54,157 bases of DNA from Bacteroidaceae bacterium (GTDB taxonomy: Bacteria > Bacteroidota > Bacteroidia > Bacteroidales > Bacteroidaceae). Location: contig JAFXDG010000107.1 of the NCBI GenBank assembly GCA_017521285.1, forward strand, positions 1 through 54,157, given 5' to 3'. The notes beneath the pieces were generated by a model, which did not search any database, was not told where the DNA came from, and saw only the letters and a list, made by a program, of their open reading frames with translations. Positions 9,567 to 28,439 of the stretch are shown piece by piece. Position 1 is the first letter of the stretch; every line of letters begins with the position of its first letter. The position numbers were made by a program, and so were the translations under genes.

Positions 9567-10601
9567 TTAGGAGCAGTGTTTTATTTTGAAGATAATTTCG
9601 TATGTGTCTTTAAGTTCTGCAATATCTGTAAGAATATTGTTTTCTCCTTTTTCTATGGCATTGACAAATGCTGTAATTTCGCTGAAATATCCTTGCGTAA
9701 AGATTTGGTTGTTGGGTAGGATGGGTGAAAAGTTGTTTTGATGATACAAATGTTTTGTCAGAGTGTGGTGTGCGTGTAACTTCTCCAATGGAATGCCCAA
9801 TATCGTTGGTTGCTTGGGTGAAAAGGTCAGTTTGTCCATCTGAGTGAGTTGATAGACTCCAGAACGGGTGCAAATCTTCAGAGTTTCTTCTGCTTCAGTC
9901 CAAGTATAGGCCGTGGAAAGTTCGAGCGTACCGACGATGTGCTGATGTTGGAGCATGAGGATATAGGAGTCTTTATCGGTTTGTCGGCAAGAGAGAATCT
10001 GGGGTTGGCCAAACAGATAGCATACCAAATCAATAGGATGGATATAGAGGTCGAGCGTGGCATCGCCTTCCGGATAGCAACCAGTGAGATAGTGTAAATC
10101 GTAATTGATTAGGTGTTCCTTGTTCAGTTGTTTCTTTAAGATTTGTATTGCGGGGGCATACCTTTTTTGTAAGCCTGCCATGGTGACTATGGATTTGTGA
10201 ACATGTCGCAAGGCAATCAGTTGGTCGAGTTCTGTCAACGAATAGCATGGTGGTTTTTCTATGAATAGAGACTTCCCACTGTGAAGGACTTGTGATGCGA
10301 TGGAGAAATGAGCAGATGGTGAAGTGGCAACAAAGACTCCTTTCACATCCTTGTCGTTCAGTATTGCATCTAATGAGTCCGTTGCTTTTGTGCCAGCGAA
10401 CTTTTGTTCTATCAGTCGGGCTTTCCTTTCCGATGTGGCATAGATATATTTTAACGACACTCCAAGATGGTGCAGCACCGGGTAAAGGTTCGTCAATGAA
10501 TGTTGTCCCATGCCAATGAAAGCATAAGAATGTTGATATGTTTGACATAGATAACGCTCTGTGCGCATCCGCTTGTATCGGTTGATAAGTTTCTGCATCA
10601 T
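9567..10601 (-). CDS. Gfo/Idh/MocA family oxidoreductase
   Basis: A 344-aa NAD(P)-dependent sugar/cyclitol-type dehydrogenase by family. The N-terminal Rossmann fold starts near residue 26 (AFIGMGQHSLTNLYPVL, a GxGxxxxxxxxP pattern). The family EKP motif appears in LFIEKPP, where the Lys is the usual catalytic residue, and a C-terminal alpha/beta substrate domain follows with an IHPIDL histidine. Substrate cannot be told. The start ATG overlaps the radical SAM stop by 4 bp (ATGA), so the two are translationally coupled and probably work in one pathway. A second ATG follows immediately (10598). Confidence 0.88.
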   Translation of the reverse strand: MMQKLINRYKRMRTERYLCQTYQHSYAFIGMGQHSLTNLYPVLHHLGVSLKYIYATSERKARLIEQKFAGTKATDSLDAILNDKDVKGVFVATSPSAHFSIASQVLHSGKSLFIEKPPCYSLTELDQLIALRHVHKSIVTMAGLQKRYAPAIQILKKQLNKEHLINYDLHYLTGCYPEGDATLDLYIHPIDLVCYLFGQPQILSCRQTDKDSYILMLQHQHIVGTLELSTAYTWTEAEETLKICTRSGVYQLTQMDKLTFSPKQPTILGIPLEKLHAHHTLTKHLYHQNNFSPILPNNQIFTQGYFSEITAFVNAIEKGENNILTDIAELKDTYEIIFKIKHCS

Positions 10602-11659
10602 TGTATCAGTTTTATGTGTTCACGATAAGTTGTTTGAGAGTTTGCCGTCCATTGGTATTCGCCATAAAACCGTTCAATGAACCATTTGGGGAATATCCGC
10701 TCGAGGTTGCGTACAAGAATGATGTCGTACTTGCGATGAAAATTAATCCAACAATTGTTGCAATGTCGTGAGTAGTGGCATTGTGTACGGCAAGTTGATG
10801 CCCCGTTGAAGATTTCGTCAAGCGATTGTTGGTGGATGTTTCCTAATACTACGTCAAGATTCTGGCATAGTGGCACATCGCCATTGCTATGCACCACGAG
10901 GCTGCTCATGATGCTTTGGCAACGAAGTCGAAGATGCCCGTTCCGCCATTCATTATAGAGAGCAACAAAGTCGTAGTTCTCTTGTGTGTCGTGAATGCTG
11001 AGGGGGATTTGTTTTATAAAGTCAGAGGCTTTCAGCAGTTCACTTGTTGTGTCAAAGAATGCCATTGTACCGTAAATGCCGATGCGGATGTCCACATGGT
11101 AATGCTTTGCCACATCAATTACAAATGCCATATCCTCGAATGTGTTCCATGGCGACAAACAGAACATCAGCGACAGGGGGACTTCATTTTTTAGGGTTTC
11201 CACCACTTCGATTACGCGATTGAATCCATTGCATCCTCGCATCTGCTGATAAGTTGTGCGGTTCCCGTCAAGAGAAACGTACAGATGGCGTGGCTTGTAA
11301 CTGCGGACAGCGTCAATGACCCGCCGAGGTGCAAGTCCATTTGTAAGCAATGTATAATTGGGGTGATGTTCATGAAACCATGCCATGATTTCATTGGCTT
11401 GCGGATGCAGTATGAACTCGCCTCCTTCCAATCCTACCGTTGTCCTTTGTGTCACACACCGGCTTTGCATGATTTGCTGGATGTCGTTGAGTGAAAGATG
11501 TTCTACGGGCCGTTTTTGCCAGATGTTGCAATGTTTGCATTTTGACTGGCAAAGTGTAGTTGAGTAAATCATCAGTTGGGAGAGCCGCTTTTTTCGTGGC
11601 CTCATGATGTTGTTCAGATAGAGCAGACCATTATAGGTGTAATCATAAATGCTATACAT
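10598..11659 (-). CDS. Radical SAM/SPASM-type protein
   Basis: About 353 aa. The radical SAM [4Fe-4S] motif CxxxCxxC is seen as CQSKCKHC at residues 37-44, followed by the glycine-rich EGGEF segment and SLDG. The C-terminal third has several Cys (CQSI, LCQN, CRTQC, CNNC), consistent with a SPASM auxiliary cluster. Substrate unknown; related proteins modify peptides or sugars. I start it at the ATG at 11659. An in-frame ATG at 11707 would begin inside a perfect 16-bp inverted repeat and adds residues not typical of the family. It lies between the sigma-barrel gene and the oxidoreductase, all on the minus strand. Confidence 0.88.
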   Translation of the reverse strand: MYSIYDYTYNGLLYLNNIMRPRKKRLSQLMIYSTTLCQSKCKHCNIWQKRPVEHLSLNDIQQIMQSRCVTQRTTVGLEGGEFILHPQANEIMAWFHEHHPNYTLLTNGLAPRRVIDAVRSYKPRHLYVSLDGNRTTYQQMRGCNGFNRVIEVVETLKNEVPLSLMFCLSPWNTFEDMAFVIDVAKHYHVDIRIGIYGTMAFFDTTSELLKASDFIKQIPLSIHDTQENYDFVALYNEWRNGHLRLRCQSIMSSLVVHSNGDVPLCQNLDVVLGNIHQQSLDEIFNGASTCRTQCHYSRHCNNCWINFHRKYDIILVRNLERIFPKWFIERFYGEYQWTANSQTTYREHIKLIQ

Positions 11660-11662
11660 ACG

Positions 11663-11712
11663 ATTCGTTGCAATTTTGTTTTCTACTTGTAAAGTCCAAA
11701 ATTGCAACGAAT
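11663..11712 (-). repeat. Perfect 16-bp inverted repeat before the radical SAM gene
   Basis: ATTCGTTGCAATTTTG (11663-11678) is an exact reverse complement of 11697-11712, with an 18-nt spacer. It lies 10 bp after the stop of the sigma-barrel gene and ends 3 bp before the chosen radical SAM start. There is no T-run on the minus strand after it, so it does not look like a plain terminator. An mRNA hairpin that sets expression of the downstream genes or stabilises a processed end, or a protein-binding operator, would fit. Confidence 0.7.
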
Positions 11713-11722
11713 GACTGCACGC

Positions 11723-13402
11723 CTACCACGTAAATCTGATGCCGAATGGTAGCGACAGGTCGAACGGATGTTCAGTGTGATAAGTCTCTATCGGCCTGTT
11801 TGTGGGGATGTAGTATTGCAGACGTGGTTCAAAATAAGCGTTGATGTGTGGTAACAGTTGGTATTGTACGCCTGCGCTTACATGCACAGACCACTGCCAC
11901 GGTGCTTTGACATTGGCATGACTTTGTGGTAAAATCAATGAATCACCTAATGCAGTGTGCTGGTTGGGGTCAACATAAAGATGCTGTGTTGTCTCTTTCC
12001 CACGTACAGGAATGTCCAAATTGAGACCACCTGAAGCATAGAATTGCCAACGGTTCTTTTCCATGAACGTGTAGGTCAGTTTCAGTGGCAGGCCGACATA
12101 GTAGAGCTTCTGGGTACGGCGGGTGAGCATGTTGTGGCCGTCACTCTCAAAAGTGGATTTCATGCGTGTGTAACTTAATCCTGTGGTGAGATTCCAATGT
12201 TTGGATATGGGATAACTCAGCGATAGTTCAAAGGTACGTGGACGTTCGTGGTGTTTTCTCTCGGAAATGGGCGCGTTGGGATGTCCGGCATTCATAACCG
12301 CTATGCGTTTCATGTTCATTGCGCTGACACTGTCCATCTCGCTGGCATAGTTGTTTACATAGTCTATGTATTCTCCCCAATTGTAAATTCGCATTGAACG
12401 GGTCTGATTGCTTGACGCATAGTTGATGACGGTCAAGAAATTGTCGATGCCGCTAATGCCGTTTGAGGGAATGCCTGCGTATGCAAGCATGGTTCCCCAG
12501 GATGACTTTTTCTTCGCGGGTATAACGCGTTGCAGATTGGGGCATGTGCCAATTATTCCAGTTATCTGCACATCTGCATCAACAAGCCGGACCTCAGGTG
12601 TTGTTTGTTCAGTGAAGATTGTATCCGTATCCTTCTTTGAGTTTGCTGTCTGTTGTTGTTTGTTGACCATATTCACGGAGTCATTTATATGATGTCGGAT
12701 AGGTATGATTGTCATTTTTTTTGCAGAAGTGTTGGCTTTGTCCAGTTCTGTGTGAGTTGTCACCTCCTTTATGGGAGATTGCCTTTCATTCTTTGTTTCA
12801 AGTAGTCTCTCTGTTGGCTTTGTGCGTGTGAAGAGGTATAGTACCATGGGAAGCAGAATGGGTAGTAACCACAGCATCCAATGGTGGGCTAACGATTTTT
12901 GTAGCATTCTTTTTGCTCGTGTCAGTTGTGACGACGAGGAATGCGGCTTGATTCCCAATTTTTCTGCTATCTCTTTATGGGAAAGCCCTTCGAATACTGA
13001 CAGGCGAAATATATTGGCATACCCTTCGGGAAGAGAATCTATCGTTCTCATCACCTCGTCAAGTGATATGTCTCTCACGTTTTTCTCTTCCTCTGAAACG
13101 GGAATTGTTGTAGCCTCGTCCAGTGGAACTGTCGGCTGTGCGTCCAGATAATCCTTGTATTTTGATGCCACATTGCGGGTAATGGATATTATCCACGACT
13201 CTGCTTTACTTGTGTCCCGTAACCGGTCGAACGAGGTGAAAATTATTAAAAAAGCATCATGCAGGACATCTTCTACAGTCTGTTCGTCACTGATATAACG
13301 TCGGCATACGCTCTTCATTCGTTGAGCGTATGCTTTATACAGTTCGCCGAGTGCATCTGCATCTCCTTGTTTACATCGTTCTATCAGTAATGCTATTTCC
13401 AT
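11723..13402 (-). CDS. ECF sigma factor fused to a membrane helix and outer-membrane beta-barrel
   Basis: A single uninterrupted 559-aa frame. Residues about 8-85 are sigma region 2 (VEDVLHDAFLIIF, then WIISITRNVASKYKD). About 115-170 is region 4 with its helix-turn-helix (LSHKEIAEKLGI). Only a few residues later, about 175-191, comes a transmembrane helix (WMLWLLPILLPMVLYLF). Residues 195-375 are low-complexity, likely a periplasmic linker. The last 170 residues alternate as beta-strands (FELSLSYPISKHWNLTTGLS, LYYVGLPLKLTYTF) and end FGIRFTW, as in outer-membrane barrels. In the Dma family of Bacteroides, an anti-sigma domain, helix, linker and barrel form one protein beside a separate sigma gene; here sigma itself replaces the anti-sigma domain. 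ATGs at 13411 and 13537 are alternative starts; the latter lies upstream of the putative promoter. Confidence 0.87.
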   Translation of the reverse strand: MEIALLIERCKQGDADALGELYKAYAQRMKSVCRRYISDEQTVEDVLHDAFLIIFTSFDRLRDTSKAESWIISITRNVASKYKDYLDAQPTVPLDEATTIPVSEEEKNVRDISLDEVMRTIDSLPEGYANIFRLSVFEGLSHKEIAEKLGIKPHSSSSQLTRAKRMLQKSLAHHWMLWLLPILLPMVLYLFTRTKPTERLLETKNERQSPIKEVTTHTELDKANTSAKKMTIIPIRHHINDSVNMVNKQQQTANSKKDTDTIFTEQTTPEVRLVDADVQITGIIGTCPNLQRVIPAKKKSSWGTMLAYAGIPSNGISGIDNFLTVINYASSNQTRSMRIYNWGEYIDYVNNYASEMDSVSAMNMKRIAVMNAGHPNAPISERKHHERPRTFELSLSYPISKHWNLTTGLSYTRMKSTFESDGHNMLTRRTQKLYYVGLPLKLTYTFMEKNRWQFYASGGLNLDIPVRGKETTQHLYVDPNQHTALGDSLILPQSHANVKAPWQWSVHVSAGVQYQLLPHINAYFEPRLQYYIPTNRPIETYHTEHPFDLSLPFGIRFTW

Positions 13403-13491
13403 CGTAAACATAGTGCTTCTATTTGTTAAGTTCTGCAAATAGGGAAAAGACTGCATGATGCTGGTTGCTTTTTGAGATATTAAAACGCTTG

Positions 13492-13786: not shown

Positions 13787-15352
13787 ATGGCCTTAGCAAT
13801 TAACATAAACGACCTGCTAAACAAACAGAAGATAGAATCCAATCGGATTGAATTCAAGAAGGGTTGGAATCCGGCAAGCATATACCACAGTGTATGTGCG
13901 TTCGCTAATGATTTTGATGACCTTGGAGGTGGTTACATAGTGGTTGGGGTTGATACGGATGAAAAGACTGGAGTCGCAGTTCGTCCTGTTGAAGGAATAC
14001 CTACAGAAAAGATTGATGGCTTTCTTCAGGAAATGGTAGGTTACAATAATAAGATTTCGCCTTACTATATGCCTCGTACAAGTGTGGAAGAGGTTGATGG
14101 TAAGTCTCTACTTGTGATTTGGTGCCCAGCAGGAATCAATCGGCCATATTCTGTACCGGAGAATGTGACGGCCAAAAGTATGACCAAAGAATATTTCTAT
14201 GTTCGTAGTGGTACAAGCAGCATCATTGCTAAGGGGGAAGTTCTTGACGAACTACGTGAGTTGGCAAGCCGTGTGCCATTTGACGAACGTGGAAATCCGG
14301 ACATCCGTTTGGAGGACATCTCTACATTACTTCTTCGTGAGTATTTGGTGAAGGTGGGAAGTAAACTTGCAAGTGACATCAACATAAAACCGTTGCAGGA
14401 GATTCTTGAGCAAATGGATTTGTTTGTCGGACCCAAAGAGAACAGAATGCTTCGCAACGTTGCTGCCATGATGTTTTGTGAGAACCCGAGCAAGTTTTTC
14501 AAGCGTACTCAAGTGGAAATAGTGTATTTCCCTGAAGGCCGATTGAAAAATCCAAGCAATTTGTACGAGGGGGCTGTTATCACTGGTTCCGTGCCTCAAA
14601 TCATTGACCGCACATTGGAATACCTTAAACGTATGCTTGTGATGCAGAGTATCATCAAACTTAATGATGACTATCGCAGTAAGAAGTTCTACACTTATCC
14701 GTATCAGGCATTAGAAGAAAGTGTGACGAACAGTCTGTACCATCGTGATTATCAGGAATGGGAGCCTGTGGTGATAACTGTAGAACCTGACGGTATAACG
14801 ATTCAGAATGTGGGTGGTCCTGACAGGAGTATCTCGGCTGCTGATATCTCCCGTTGCGATATCCTTGTTTCACGTCGTTATCGCAATCGTCGTTTGGGGG
14901 AATATCTTAAAGAACTGGATATGACAGAGGGTCGTAGTACCGGTATTCCTACCATTCAGAATGTTTTGGAGAACAATGGTTCTCCACGTGCAACAGTCGT
15001 TACAGATGAAGACCGCACGTTCTTCCGTATTACTATTCCCTGTCATGAAACCGCAGGAAATATCATTGCGGATATTGCTCATAAGGATGGAACTCTCAAA
15101 GCATCAAAACGTAGTACTCTGAAAAAAACACCAAAAAGTGGACTGAAAAGTGGACTGAAAAGTGGACTGAAAAGTGGACTGAAAATATTGGAACAAATAC
15201 AAAATAATCCCCAGTCCACATTGATAGAACTGGCGAAACAAACAGGTTATTCAAGAAGTTGGGTTGCTGAAACAATGAAGCGGCTTCAAGAACAAGGTGT
15301 TATAAAGCGTGTGGGTTCTGACAGATCCGGTCATTGGGAAATTGTTGGTTAG
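13787..15352 (+). CDS. AlbA_2-domain ATP-binding putative transcriptional regulator
   Basis: A 521-aa protein. The N-terminal AlbA_2/Schlafen-like DNA-binding domain covers about 15-155 (ESNRIEFKKGW, GGGYIVVGVD, YFYVRSGTSS). A GHKL-type ATP-binding C-terminal half (HATPase_c_4 family) follows, about 300-425, with EESVTNSLYHRDYQ as the N-box and GRSTGIPTIQN as the G-box. A four-fold SGLK repeat (about 451-466) links to a winged helix-turn-helix (about 470-520, STLIELAKQTGYSRSWVAET). Family members occur near mobile or defence genes, but function is unproven. The gene is bracketed by the 156-bp repeat and probably driven by the duplicated metY promoter. Confidence 0.88.
   Translation: MALAININDLLNKQKIESNRIEFKKGWNPASIYHSVCAFANDFDDLGGGYIVVGVDTDEKTGVAVRPVEGIPTEKIDGFLQEMVGYNNKISPYYMPRTSVEEVDGKSLLVIWCPAGINRPYSVPENVTAKSMTKEYFYVRSGTSSIIAKGEVLDELRELASRVPFDERGNPDIRLEDISTLLLREYLVKVGSKLASDINIKPLQEILEQMDLFVGPKENRMLRNVAAMMFCENPSKFFKRTQVEIVYFPEGRLKNPSNLYEGAVITGSVPQIIDRTLEYLKRMLVMQSIIKLNDDYRSKKFYTYPYQALEESVTNSLYHRDYQEWEPVVITVEPDGITIQNVGGPDRSISAADISRCDILVSRRYRNRRLGEYLKELDMTEGRSTGIPTIQNVLENNGSPRATVVTDEDRTFFRITIPCHETAGNIIADIAHKDGTLKASKRSTLKKTPKSGLKSGLKSGLKSGLKILEQIQNNPQSTLIELAKQTGYSRSWVAETMKRLQEQGVIKRVGSDRSGHWEIVG
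15137..15184 (+). repeat. 12-bp tandem repeat encoding (SGLK)4
   Basis: Four exact copies of AGTGGACTGAAA in frame within the AlbA_2 gene encode a Ser-Gly-Leu-Lys linker between the ATPase half and the winged helix. Exact nucleotide identity suggests recent slippage; changes in copy number would alter linker length without breaking the frame. Confidence 0.95.
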
Positions 15353-25739: not shown

Positions 25740-28439
25740 ATGAAAAGCAAAGCTATGAGACACTTGTTCTGTAGAAGCGCTTTTGCCGCCTGTCTGATGG
25801 GTACGGCTGTGATGCTGCCATCGTGTGAGGATGATGTCCTTACCGGTCAGCCTTCATGGCTTGGTAACTCTATCTATGAACGATTGGAGGAAGAGGGCAA
25901 CTATCAGACCACGCTCAAGTTGATTCACGACTTGGGGCAGTACGATGTGTTGAGTCAGACAGGTTCTAAGACCCTGTTTGTTGCGAATGACGAAGCCTAC
26001 GAAGAGTGGTTCAAGACCAACGAGTGGGGAGTGAGAAGTTATGACCAGTTGACAACAGCCCAGAAGAAACTGTTGTTCAACAGTGCGATGGTGAACAACG
26101 CCTACTTGGTTGAGTTGCTCTCCAACGTAAGCGGTCCCGACCCCGGCGAACGTGCCGGTAAGTGTATGCGCCGTCCGTCAGCTGTCAGCATCTACGACTC
26201 GGTATATACCATTGTACCCGAGGATATGCCTGGTGTAATCAGCGAGCGTGTGGCCGGATACGAGGATGCATGGGCCAAACATCGTGGAAAGAGCAATGGT
26301 ATTGTGCTGATGAAGGACAACCAGCCGGCTCCGATGATTCACTTCCTGCCTGCTTTCATGGCATACAACAAGATTACTGACAACGACCTTTCTATCCTGA
26401 CCAACGGTAAGGCCAACTCTACTAAGGAGGCTTGGGTGAACGGTATGCAGATTACCGAACGCGACATCACTTGTAAGAACGGTTACATCCACAAGGTGGC
26501 CGGTGTGATTGAGCCTACGGTGAACATGGCCGAGTTTATCCGCCAACAGGGTCGTGTGGAAGACGAGGGCATGTCAACCGGTTTGTGGTCACGCATGATC
26601 GACCGCTTCTCGGCTCCCTTCTACAACGATGCTGCCACCAAGGAGTACAACCGCTTGTATAACAATACAGACTCAGTGTTTGTTCTCCGTTATTTCTCTG
26701 AATGGAGTGCTAACGGTGGTGCCTTGAATGCGACTCCCGACGGTGAGCGCGTAGCCGACCTGTTGCCCTTCGATCCGGGATGGAATACCTATATGTACAG
26801 CAATACGTCGGACTATACGATGTATTACGATGCCGGTGTGATGATTGTACCTACCGACTCGGCTATGCACGCCTGGTTCGATGGTGAGGGTAGCGAGTTG
26901 AAGGAGCAGTTCGGCTCTTGGGACAGCATCCCCGCCCAGACATTGAAGGAACTGTTGGGTGCCAACATGATTGAGTCGTTCACCGACAAGGTGCCCTCTA
27001 AGTTCGACAACATCCTGGATGCCTCTACCCAGTTGCCGTTGGGTATCACTCCGGGCGATGTGAAGATGTCGTATATGGGTTGTAACGGTGTGGTATTCGT
27101 GACCAACAAGGTGTTTACTCCCCGTTCTTACTCAAGTGTGGCTTTCCCCGCCATGATTCGTGAAGAGACTTTGAAGGTTATCTATTGGGCATTTGACAAC
27201 TTGGACTTCTTGCCTTACCTGAACTCAATGGACTCATACTATAGCTTGCTGTTGCCGACCAACAACGCCATGTTGTGGTACGTTGACCCCGTGAGCTACG
27301 GTACTACACAGCCCACCATGCTCGAGTTCTACTATGACAAGGACGAGAAGCGTGTGAATGCATCACGTTACAACTGTACCATCGACTCAACCGGTGCCAT
27401 CACTCCGGGTGTGCGTGTACAGGCCAAGGTGGCTACCACTATTGTGGAAGACCGTCTGAACGACTTGATTGACCAGTTGATTATCGTGGGTGACATCGAA
27501 GACGGTCACGAGTATTACAAGACCAAGGGTGGTACTCCCGTGCGTGTGATTCGCGAGAACGGAGAGATTCAGATTCAGGGTCTCTGGCAGACCGGTTATG
27601 GCAAGAACCTGACCGTGCGCACCGTATATGACAAGACTGAAAAGGGTAACGGTAAGTCATACGAAATTGATGACCAGATGCCGTTGGCTTCCCAGAAGTC
27701 AGTGTATGGTACCCTGTTGGGCAATCCCGCGTATGAAGAGTTCTTGAACCTCTTCTTCGGTGGTGACCCCGAAGATCCGAAGAACAGTATGATGATTCAG
27801 ACAATGAGCAACAACAAGTATGCTTGTGCCGGTGTGGCCACAGGTAACTACAACGTCCGTCTGTTCGAGAACTATAACTATACTGTCTATGTGCCGACCA
27901 ATGAGGCTATCCGCGACTTGGTTGAGAAGGATTCATTGCCTACTTGGGAAGACTTTGAATATTACGACAGCCTTTCTATCGACGATGCTTCTTCAGAAGA
28001 AGACCGTGCCTTGTACGAAATGTACTGCACAGTCATCAAGGAGCGTATTACAGACTTTGTCCGCTACCACTTGCAGGATAACTCTGTGATTATCGGTGCT
28101 ACGCCTGTTGAGAATATGGCATACGAAACAATGTTGGTGAACGAAGAGACCGGCCGTTTCTTCGGTCTGGACGTTACCAGCACTGATAATTCTATTGAAG
28201 TGGTTGACCAGACGAACCGTGTACACCGTGTGGTGCTGGATGCCGACAAGAAGAACTACAATCAGATTTGTCGCGAATTCTGGTTTACTGCCAGTGCCGG
28301 TAAGTTGAGCAACACTTCTACTATCTATATGGAGTCGGATGCCGTGGTGCATCAGATTGATGGTGTCTTGAGACACAAGTGGTATGGAACTACTTGGGAG
28401 CAGGAGGCCTACGATCGAGTTAGAGCTAATGCTAATTAA
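25740..28439 (+). CDS. Fasciclin (FAS1) repeat lipoprotein, four domains
   Basis: An 899-aa lipoprotein (lipobox LPSC at about 26-29, followed by EDD, favouring surface export in Bacteroidetes). I read about four FAS1-like repeats: about 45-260, 310-475, 480-640 and 645-895. They are recognised by the H1/H2-type strings KTLFVANDEAYEEWF, AGVMIVPTDSAMHAWF, YYSLLLPTNNAMLWY and YTVYVPTNEAIRDL. FAS1 domains mediate adhesion or ligand binding. It is the first gene of the locus; SusC1 follows after 14 bp with a strong AAGGAGG site (28438-28444), so they share a transcript. Likely a surface accessory of the SusCD complex. Confidence 0.87.
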   Translation: MKSKAMRHLFCRSAFAACLMGTAVMLPSCEDDVLTGQPSWLGNSIYERLEEEGNYQTTLKLIHDLGQYDVLSQTGSKTLFVANDEAYEEWFKTNEWGVRSYDQLTTAQKKLLFNSAMVNNAYLVELLSNVSGPDPGERAGKCMRRPSAVSIYDSVYTIVPEDMPGVISERVAGYEDAWAKHRGKSNGIVLMKDNQPAPMIHFLPAFMAYNKITDNDLSILTNGKANSTKEAWVNGMQITERDITCKNGYIHKVAGVIEPTVNMAEFIRQQGRVEDEGMSTGLWSRMIDRFSAPFYNDAATKEYNRLYNNTDSVFVLRYFSEWSANGGALNATPDGERVADLLPFDPGWNTYMYSNTSDYTMYYDAGVMIVPTDSAMHAWFDGEGSELKEQFGSWDSIPAQTLKELLGANMIESFTDKVPSKFDNILDASTQLPLGITPGDVKMSYMGCNGVVFVTNKVFTPRSYSSVAFPAMIREETLKVIYWAFDNLDFLPYLNSMDSYYSLLLPTNNAMLWYVDPVSYGTTQPTMLEFYYDKDEKRVNASRYNCTIDSTGAITPGVRVQAKVATTIVEDRLNDLIDQLIIVGDIEDGHEYYKTKGGTPVRVIRENGEIQIQGLWQTGYGKNLTVRTVYDKTEKGNGKSYEIDDQMPLASQKSVYGTLLGNPAYEEFLNLFFGGDPEDPKNSMMIQTMSNNKYACAGVATGNYNVRLFENYNYTVYVPTNEAIRDLVEKDSLPTWEDFEYYDSLSIDDASSEEDRALYEMYCTVIKERITDFVRYHLQDNSVIIGATPVENMAYETMLVNEETGRFFGLDVTSTDNSIEVVDQTNRVHRVVLDADKKNYNQICREFWFTASAGKLSNTSTIYMESDAVVHQIDGVLRHKWYGTTWEQEAYDRVRANAN

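Follow-up and report, generated by a model that had tools for sequence, protein, structure and literature searches.

A fused ECF sigma factor and outer-membrane barrel conserved in Bacteroidaceae, with a predicted promoter before its own gene and apparent exchange of the barrel half

How can a sigma factor act on its promoters when its own polypeptide chain appears to tie it to both membranes of the cell? The question is raised by a gene on the minus strand of the window, i.e., the whole 54,157-nucleotide stretch of Bacteroidaceae DNA analysed here, in which a single open frame (11723–13402) encodes ECF sigma regions 2 and 4, a transmembrane (TM) helix, a disordered linker and an outer-membrane (OM) barrel. 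An earlier note, made from the sequence alone, had proposed this joined frame, and the proposal is confirmed. The protein has 559 residues, and all 28 aligned full-length fusions, the window's included, match both domains (sigma regions 2 and 4 and barrel family PF13568). The parts of the gene are as follows.

11723..13402, minus strand: sigma–TM–linker–barrel fusion gene (559 aa, stop included)
12887..13402, minus strand: ECF sigma domain, residues 1–172, with regions 2 and 4 and PHSSSSQL in region 4
12824..12886, minus strand: predicted TM helix, residues ~173–193, from hydropathy, directly C-terminal of region 4
12506..12823, minus strand: disordered low-complexity linker, residues ~194–299 (~105 residues; pLDDT <50 at 193–298)
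11726..12496, minus strand: 8-stranded OM barrel, residues 303–559, with an FTW end (structure model, fold matches and family match)

A second conserved ATG of the gene stands at 13411. The sigma part has regions 2 and 4 with no region 3 between them, as expected of an ECF sigma factor, and no separate sigma gene adjoins the fusion gene in the window. The TM helix had been noticed to lie close to the helix-turn-helix; it in fact starts 1–6 residues past region 4 in the fused proteins, with L119 as the sole exception, and in the structure model (folding alignment of 26 rows, L009 and L011 left out) one helix spans residues 157–192, the model confidence being low in region 4. The linker is poorly conserved in sequence and measures 103–139 residues across 28 homologues. 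The structure prediction that the earlier note had called for yielded, in model and fold matches alike, an 8-stranded OmpA/OprF-like barrel, whose first loop is long (about residues 310–388, with two helices in the model). This loop has 77–90 residues in 27 of the 28 homologues and 33 in L011, and the barrel ends in tryptophan in 27 of 28. The modelled layout is thus predicted to be a tether with a TM helix and a periplasmic linker, and we infer that the N-terminus is cytoplasmic, the helix anchored in the inner membrane and the barrel inserted by BAM. A reading of the fusion as a defence system was rejected, since PADLOC gave no match for the protein.

Could the fusion be a sequencing error or a lone event? 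A scan of public genomes found 35 loci, 27 of which match nearly the whole query at 39–65% identity (best segment), mostly in Prevotella, Prevotellaceae or Bacteroidaceae MAGs from ruminants. Among the matches listed, with up to four candidates scored per genome, at least 68 of 301 same-family genomes contain an uninterrupted fused frame of ~490 residues or more, six of them with two full copies, and 172 of the 301 have some match at 1e-25. An error or a lone fusion is ruled out by these uninterrupted frames, which also answer the call for homologues free of frameshifts. In the order scan (393 genomes, up to three candidates per genome), nine genomes match at 1e-50, and fused frames outside the window's family occur in G519 (two), G653, G673 and probably G661. 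In the phylum scan (395 genomes, up to three candidates per genome), 73 match at 1e-30; among the matches listed, fused frames occur in the window's own family only, and outside it the sigma or the barrel stands in a separate frame. Many of the loci compared come from MAGs.

The median dN/dS, from 37–40 of the 40 closest pairs, is 0.11 for the sigma part, 0.20 for the TM helix, 0.31 for the linker and 0.16 for the barrel, and sequence comparison indicates that purifying selection is acting on every part of the fusion. The dS of the barrel (1.10, vs. 0.61 for sigma) is inflated because barrels have been exchanged, as described below. With intact domains, a dN/dS of 0.11 and a conserved promoter 5′ of its own gene, the sigma half has the look of a working factor. 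The frame is interrupted, through error or real loss, in three fused genes: in L123 (G161) an in-frame TGA separates sigma region 4 from the TM helix, L083 (G157) has a TAG within the linker, and L120 (G085) is broken, with sigma and barrel in separate frames.

The earlier note had seen no description of the arrangement. However, Dma3 of Bacteroides thetaiotaomicron is reported, in a passage of PMC13088901 that credits Pardue 2024, to have a sigma domain at its own N-terminus, and BT2778 is listed as an annotated sigma-70 factor (PMC10434189). By that published description, the Dma3 locus (bt_2778-2779) is likened to the architecture found here, and the window protein likewise has its sigma domain N-terminal in a Dma-like chain; the arrangement is therefore already known. 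The contrast that the earlier note drew with the Dma proteins, i.e., an anti-sigma N-terminus and a separate sigma factor, stands for Dma1 and Dma2 and falls for Dma3 (PMC13088901, same passage). In the literature searched on fused, tethered or membrane-bound sigma factors, nothing closer than Dma3 was found. In IutY of Pseudomonas putida (ECF243), a sigma factor is likewise attached to a membrane segment and is released by Prc and RseP; unlike the window protein, which has no anti-sigma domain within its chain, IutY has an anti-sigma part and serves siderophore-system signalling, and the section of PMC8999054 that treats it describes no barrel of its own. The ECF48/52/53 sigmas (e.g., SCO4117) share a C-terminal TM extension with the fusion, whereas they are described in that section as actinobacterial, with a zinc-finger anti-sigma domain and without an OM barrel (PMC8999054). 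What is added here beyond Dma3 is the wide conservation, the promoter, the regulon and the barrel exchange, for which no report was found in the literature searched, a search that covered few subscription journals; Pardue 2024 may hold some of it. The odd layout of Dma3 thus becomes that of a class found widely, and conserved, among the Bacteroidaceae of rumen and gut.

The closest two-gene relatives have a sigma frame of 186–241 codons followed by a membrane-protein frame of 416–467 codons, and we infer from this layout, together with a NigD-like neighbour, that these unfused loci are Das/Dma systems. Such pairs (Dma1, Dma2; EcfO/Reo; M0N98_03761-03760) resemble the fusion in their homologous sigma and barrel, TM helix, disordered tether and −35 core TGCAGT, which is common to fused and unfused loci. 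They differ in that there are two genes, and in that the membrane protein opens with a ~50-residue anti-sigma segment (MKEDDKW...DYSEPLP.GLWE..E.EL; 47–54 residues, 81 in L145) ahead of the TM helix, a segment absent from the fused proteins. As regards a possible place in the ECF21 group, the fused sigma resembles the unfused sigma genes in promoter and in a region-4 signature around SSSQL, S(S/A/G)SQ; seven further ECF factors of the window genome (one of them cut short there), when compared, did not show this signature.

The earlier note would have been refuted by relatives that always come as two genes; both forms exist, in separate clades. In a sigma tree of 98 rows, fused and unfused are split by one change when only these two states are counted, and the fused label requires three changes if broken genes and other ECFs are counted as well. 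For the sigma tree, 18 locus ids (duplicates, partial or contig-cut copies) were left out beforehand. A barrel tree of 92 rows gives the same single split, the unfused rows being set apart by a branch with support 97. In both trees, the fused genes from genera g3 and g13 group with the fused rows. The trees allow a single fusion event, by which the fused class was apparently born once through loss of the anti-sigma part, although, the placement of the root being uncertain, fission may have occurred instead. The unfused pair L126/L127 adjoins the fused clade in the barrel tree and has a fused-type promoter and a methyltransferase neighbour, and would therefore, subject to the same uncertainty about the root, resemble the pre-fusion state.

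If the sigma half works, where does it act? Two candidate promoter sites are found at the window locus.

13430..13455, minus strand: predicted promoter of the fusion gene, TGCAGTCTTTT, with GAAC at offset 22
11694..11719, minus strand: second promoter copy, between the fusion gene and the radical-SAM gene, TGCAGTCATT, with GGAC at offset 22

The sequence TGCAGTCTTT, with one mismatch allowed, is found upstream of 64 of the 67 distinct fused genes (57 exact; identical proteins and genes with <200 upstream bases left out), a score that shuffled upstreams reach in 0.9%, and 52 of the 64 sites stand 52–53 nt before the ATG. The conserved form is RTGCAGTCTTT, followed by a second (−10) element, mostly GGAC or TATC, which begins ~22 nt past the first T. 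The three genes without the motif are L011, L109 and L110; the latter two, from genus g13, have a lipoprotein-like neighbour of another kind. A coding role for the conserved ATG/GTG CAG TCT TTT was considered and rejected, as only 12 of the 64 sites are in frame and open into the gene, the window site among them; a stop interrupts 28, and the other 24 are in another frame. In the same region of the unfused sigma genes, TGCAGTA is found in 20 of 24, TGCAGTC in two and neither in two (L010, L120 and L123, of the fused clade, are left out of this count and kept in the −10 tally), and the −10 element at the same offset is mostly CATTTATA, vs. GGAC/TATC in the fused genes. Given a conserved two-part motif with a covarying −10 at the fused genes, the fusion gene is predicted to be autoregulated through an ECF-type promoter. 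At unfused loci, TGCAGTA-N13..17-CATT stands before the divergent NigD-like gene in six of 12 cases (L132, L133, L135, L136, L139 and L141; NigD domains confirmed on one of the 12) and before none of 42 genes of four other neighbour clusters, in line with the control of nigD1 by Das1 described in PMC13088901 where that pair is treated.

Downstream of the fusion gene lie two predicted targets.

10598..11659, minus strand: radical SAM/SPASM protein, predicted target (start taken from orthologues, MYSIYDY...)
9567..10601, minus strand: Gfo/Idh/MocA-family oxidoreductase, also a predicted target, through a shared transcript with the radical-SAM gene, whose stop it overlaps by 4 bases

At least one of four families is present among the next four same-strand downstream frames at 41 of 46 fused loci, a count that includes a few near-copies: radical SAM/SPASM (23), Gfo/Idh/MocA oxidoreductase (19), a ~190-residue lipoprotein (17) and class I methyltransferase (12). 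Neither of two neighbour lipoproteins tried gave a Pfam match. Whereas the window fusion is followed by a radical SAM protein and an oxidoreductase, of the seven loci, fused or broken, in genera g3 and g13 (L106–L111, L120), five have a methyltransferase neighbour. The −35 part of the promoter precedes the radical-SAM gene in 20 of 22 cases, the lipoprotein gene in 13 of 18 and the methyltransferase gene in eight of 12 (so that two, five and four genes, respectively, are without a good copy), and the same scorer finds it before 3 of 204 other same-strand neighbours and in 2 of 281 shuffled stretches. When the −10 is also required, with tetramers that were picked after the upstream regions had been viewed, the counts are 14/24, 13/18 and 9/15, compared with 9/359 for other neighbours and 3/570 for shuffled stretches; six of the nine other-neighbour matches belong to loci and strands of NigD-like genes. 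No promoter was found before two rarer lipoprotein families (0/6) or before the oxidoreductase gene (0/19 with the −35 scorer, 0/21 with the −10 also required), the latter being what co-transcription with the radical-SAM gene would produce. In 24 of 41 pairs, sigma gene and neighbour have one and the same −10 tetramer, against a permuted mean of 11.6 and with none of 10000 permutations as high, although this permutation ignores the relatedness of the loci.

The pattern TGCAGTCWTT-N11..13-GRAC occurs twice in the window genome (86% complete), at 13430–13455 and 11694–11719, and a control pattern occurs once; because the pattern was written after both sites had been seen, only the absence of further sites is informative. 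In G008, the full pattern likewise occurs twice, both times at its fused locus. Since the full-pattern sites lie only at the locus, the predicted regulon is the locus itself. A genome-wide regulon was rejected: the exact RTGCAGTCTTT has seven matches in the fusion's own genome, vs. eight for the reversed control, with no convincing target gene at those outside the fusion locus. Across all 15 genomes of the genus, the full pattern gives seven sites vs. four for the control; three of the seven are in two genomes in which no fusion turned up (G001 and G013), and the fusion-bearing G010 has no full-pattern site because its site reads TGCAGTATCC. A further ATGCAGTCTTTTTT site with TTATCAT downstream was seen at L158 (G000 C23:23549), without a clear target gene.

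The two halves of the fusion do not always share a history. L041 and L053 are 95% identical in sigma and 45% in the barrel, L009 and L041 are 97% and 45% identical, and L038 and L039 show the reverse (sigma 76%, barrel 94%). Identity drops sharply near residue 280, where the linker ends, and two barrel types are found beneath near-identical sigma–TM halves (L041, L053, L009, L037 and L044; window residues ~280–559). The barrel data reject a clade supported by the sigma tree (p-AU 2e-64), and the sigma data reject a clade of 11 type I barrels (p-AU 2.5e-4), with groups that were chosen after the trees had been seen. At the level of sequence, the simplest reading is that the sensor half has recombined; since many assemblies contain the same barrel types, chimeric MAG assembly is the less likely cause.

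We propose, with a probability of roughly 0.6, that the fusion is a Dma3-type tethered, autoregulated ECF sigma factor that is freed by proteolysis when its barrel senses a change in the envelope. The tether, with region 4 held against the membrane, would keep sigma away from its promoters. When the barrel or its long first loop registered a change at the outer membrane, a periplasmic stretch would become exposed to a site-1 protease, after which an RseP-like M50 protease would cut and free the sigma fragment. The fragment would then switch on its own promoter and that of the radical-SAM/SPASM–oxidoreductase pair, which would modify an envelope component, and autoactivation would rebuild and reset the sensor because every round of synthesis yields a new tethered molecule. 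As sigma appears to be tethered across the envelope, proteolytic release would be the simplest route. An M50 protease is present, but M50 proteases are found in all 14 control genomes as well, so its presence says little about release.

What the barrel would sense is the point on which the strongest alternative differs, as it concerns the signal and not the release: the signal may be an unfolded or mis-inserted barrel, i.e., a gauge of barrel assembly or of general envelope stress instead of a ligand. We regard this as possible, if the less favoured view of the signal. The C-termini of OM proteins are recognised by DegS, with the unfolded OM protein as the signal, and the tryptophan end of the barrel in nearly all homologues is consistent with such a gauge. 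In Phocaeicola vulgatus, the toxin BcpT, which acts on the envelope, raises the sigma gene of an unfused relative 33-fold, and without the anti-sigma gene only 15 genes change and the O-antigen is longer, as described in the relevant section of PMC9308784. The authors of that section suggest envelope stress as the signal for this unfused pair, and the genes that BcpT induced include many that the BamA inhibitor bacteroidetocin A is known to induce as well, both of which favour a gauge; the section does not say that bacteroidetocin A induces the sigma pair (PMC9308784). However, the swapping of two barrel types under near-identical sigmas, together with the conserved length of the first loop, suggests specific recognition.

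Release itself would be dispensable if the uncleaved, tethered sigma bound RNA polymerase and promoters at the inner membrane, the barrel altering only geometry or abundance. Regulators of the CadC/ToxR type work from the membrane without cleavage; in the fusion, the TM helix follows region 4 almost directly, so that no anti-sigma domain needs removal, and a tiny predicted regulon that includes the sigma gene suits action at one locus. We nevertheless consider this unlikely, given that the sigma/anti-sigma fusion IutY needs proteolysis, according to the account of it in PMC8999054, and that a recognition helix running into the TM helix, as modelled, would leave little room for −35 DNA. Weaker still, and to our mind improbable, is the idea that the fusion is an anti-sigma factor or decoy, in which the sigma half would vie for RNA polymerase or promoters, the genes being driven by another sigma: Dma1 and Dma2, of similar layout, are indeed described as anti-sigma factors in the passage of PMC13088901 on them, but the anti-sigma segment of the unfused proteins is missing, the −10 elements covary within loci, and the window genome, 86% complete, has no second profile match at 1e-25 and other barrel-family frames of 194–255 aa, vs. 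416–467 aa for the unfused proteins, and thus offers no obvious partner for the fusion.

Beyond the proposed release of a tethered sigma by proteolysis, a broader reading can be offered tentatively, its chances being a little short of even: the whole surface-to-promoter circuit may reside in one chain, in which the tether stands in for a lost anti-sigma factor, the regulon amounts to little more than the gene's own locus, with the fusion gene and envelope-modifying enzymes of which several have a promoter copy to themselves, and the barrel is a swappable cassette that can be re-aimed at changing surface cues such as toxins or phages. If so, lineages would swap the sensor by recombination beneath a constant sigma–TM–linker half, and one molecule could carry a signal from the cell surface to a few promoters. 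The concrete promoter and target genes make sigma release and the barrel signal testable by a simple reporter, and the swapped barrels provide natural domain exchanges for mapping the signal.

Two other parts of the window were noted in passing. A divergent gene at 13787–15352 (plus strand) encodes Schlafen AlbA_2, RecG-C-terminal-like ATPase and winged-helix domains, the last of which is preceded by a GLKS repeat. A SusC/SusD-type cluster at 25740–46368 (plus strand) includes three fasciclin-domain proteins, two TonB-receptor plug proteins and a glycosyl hydrolase.
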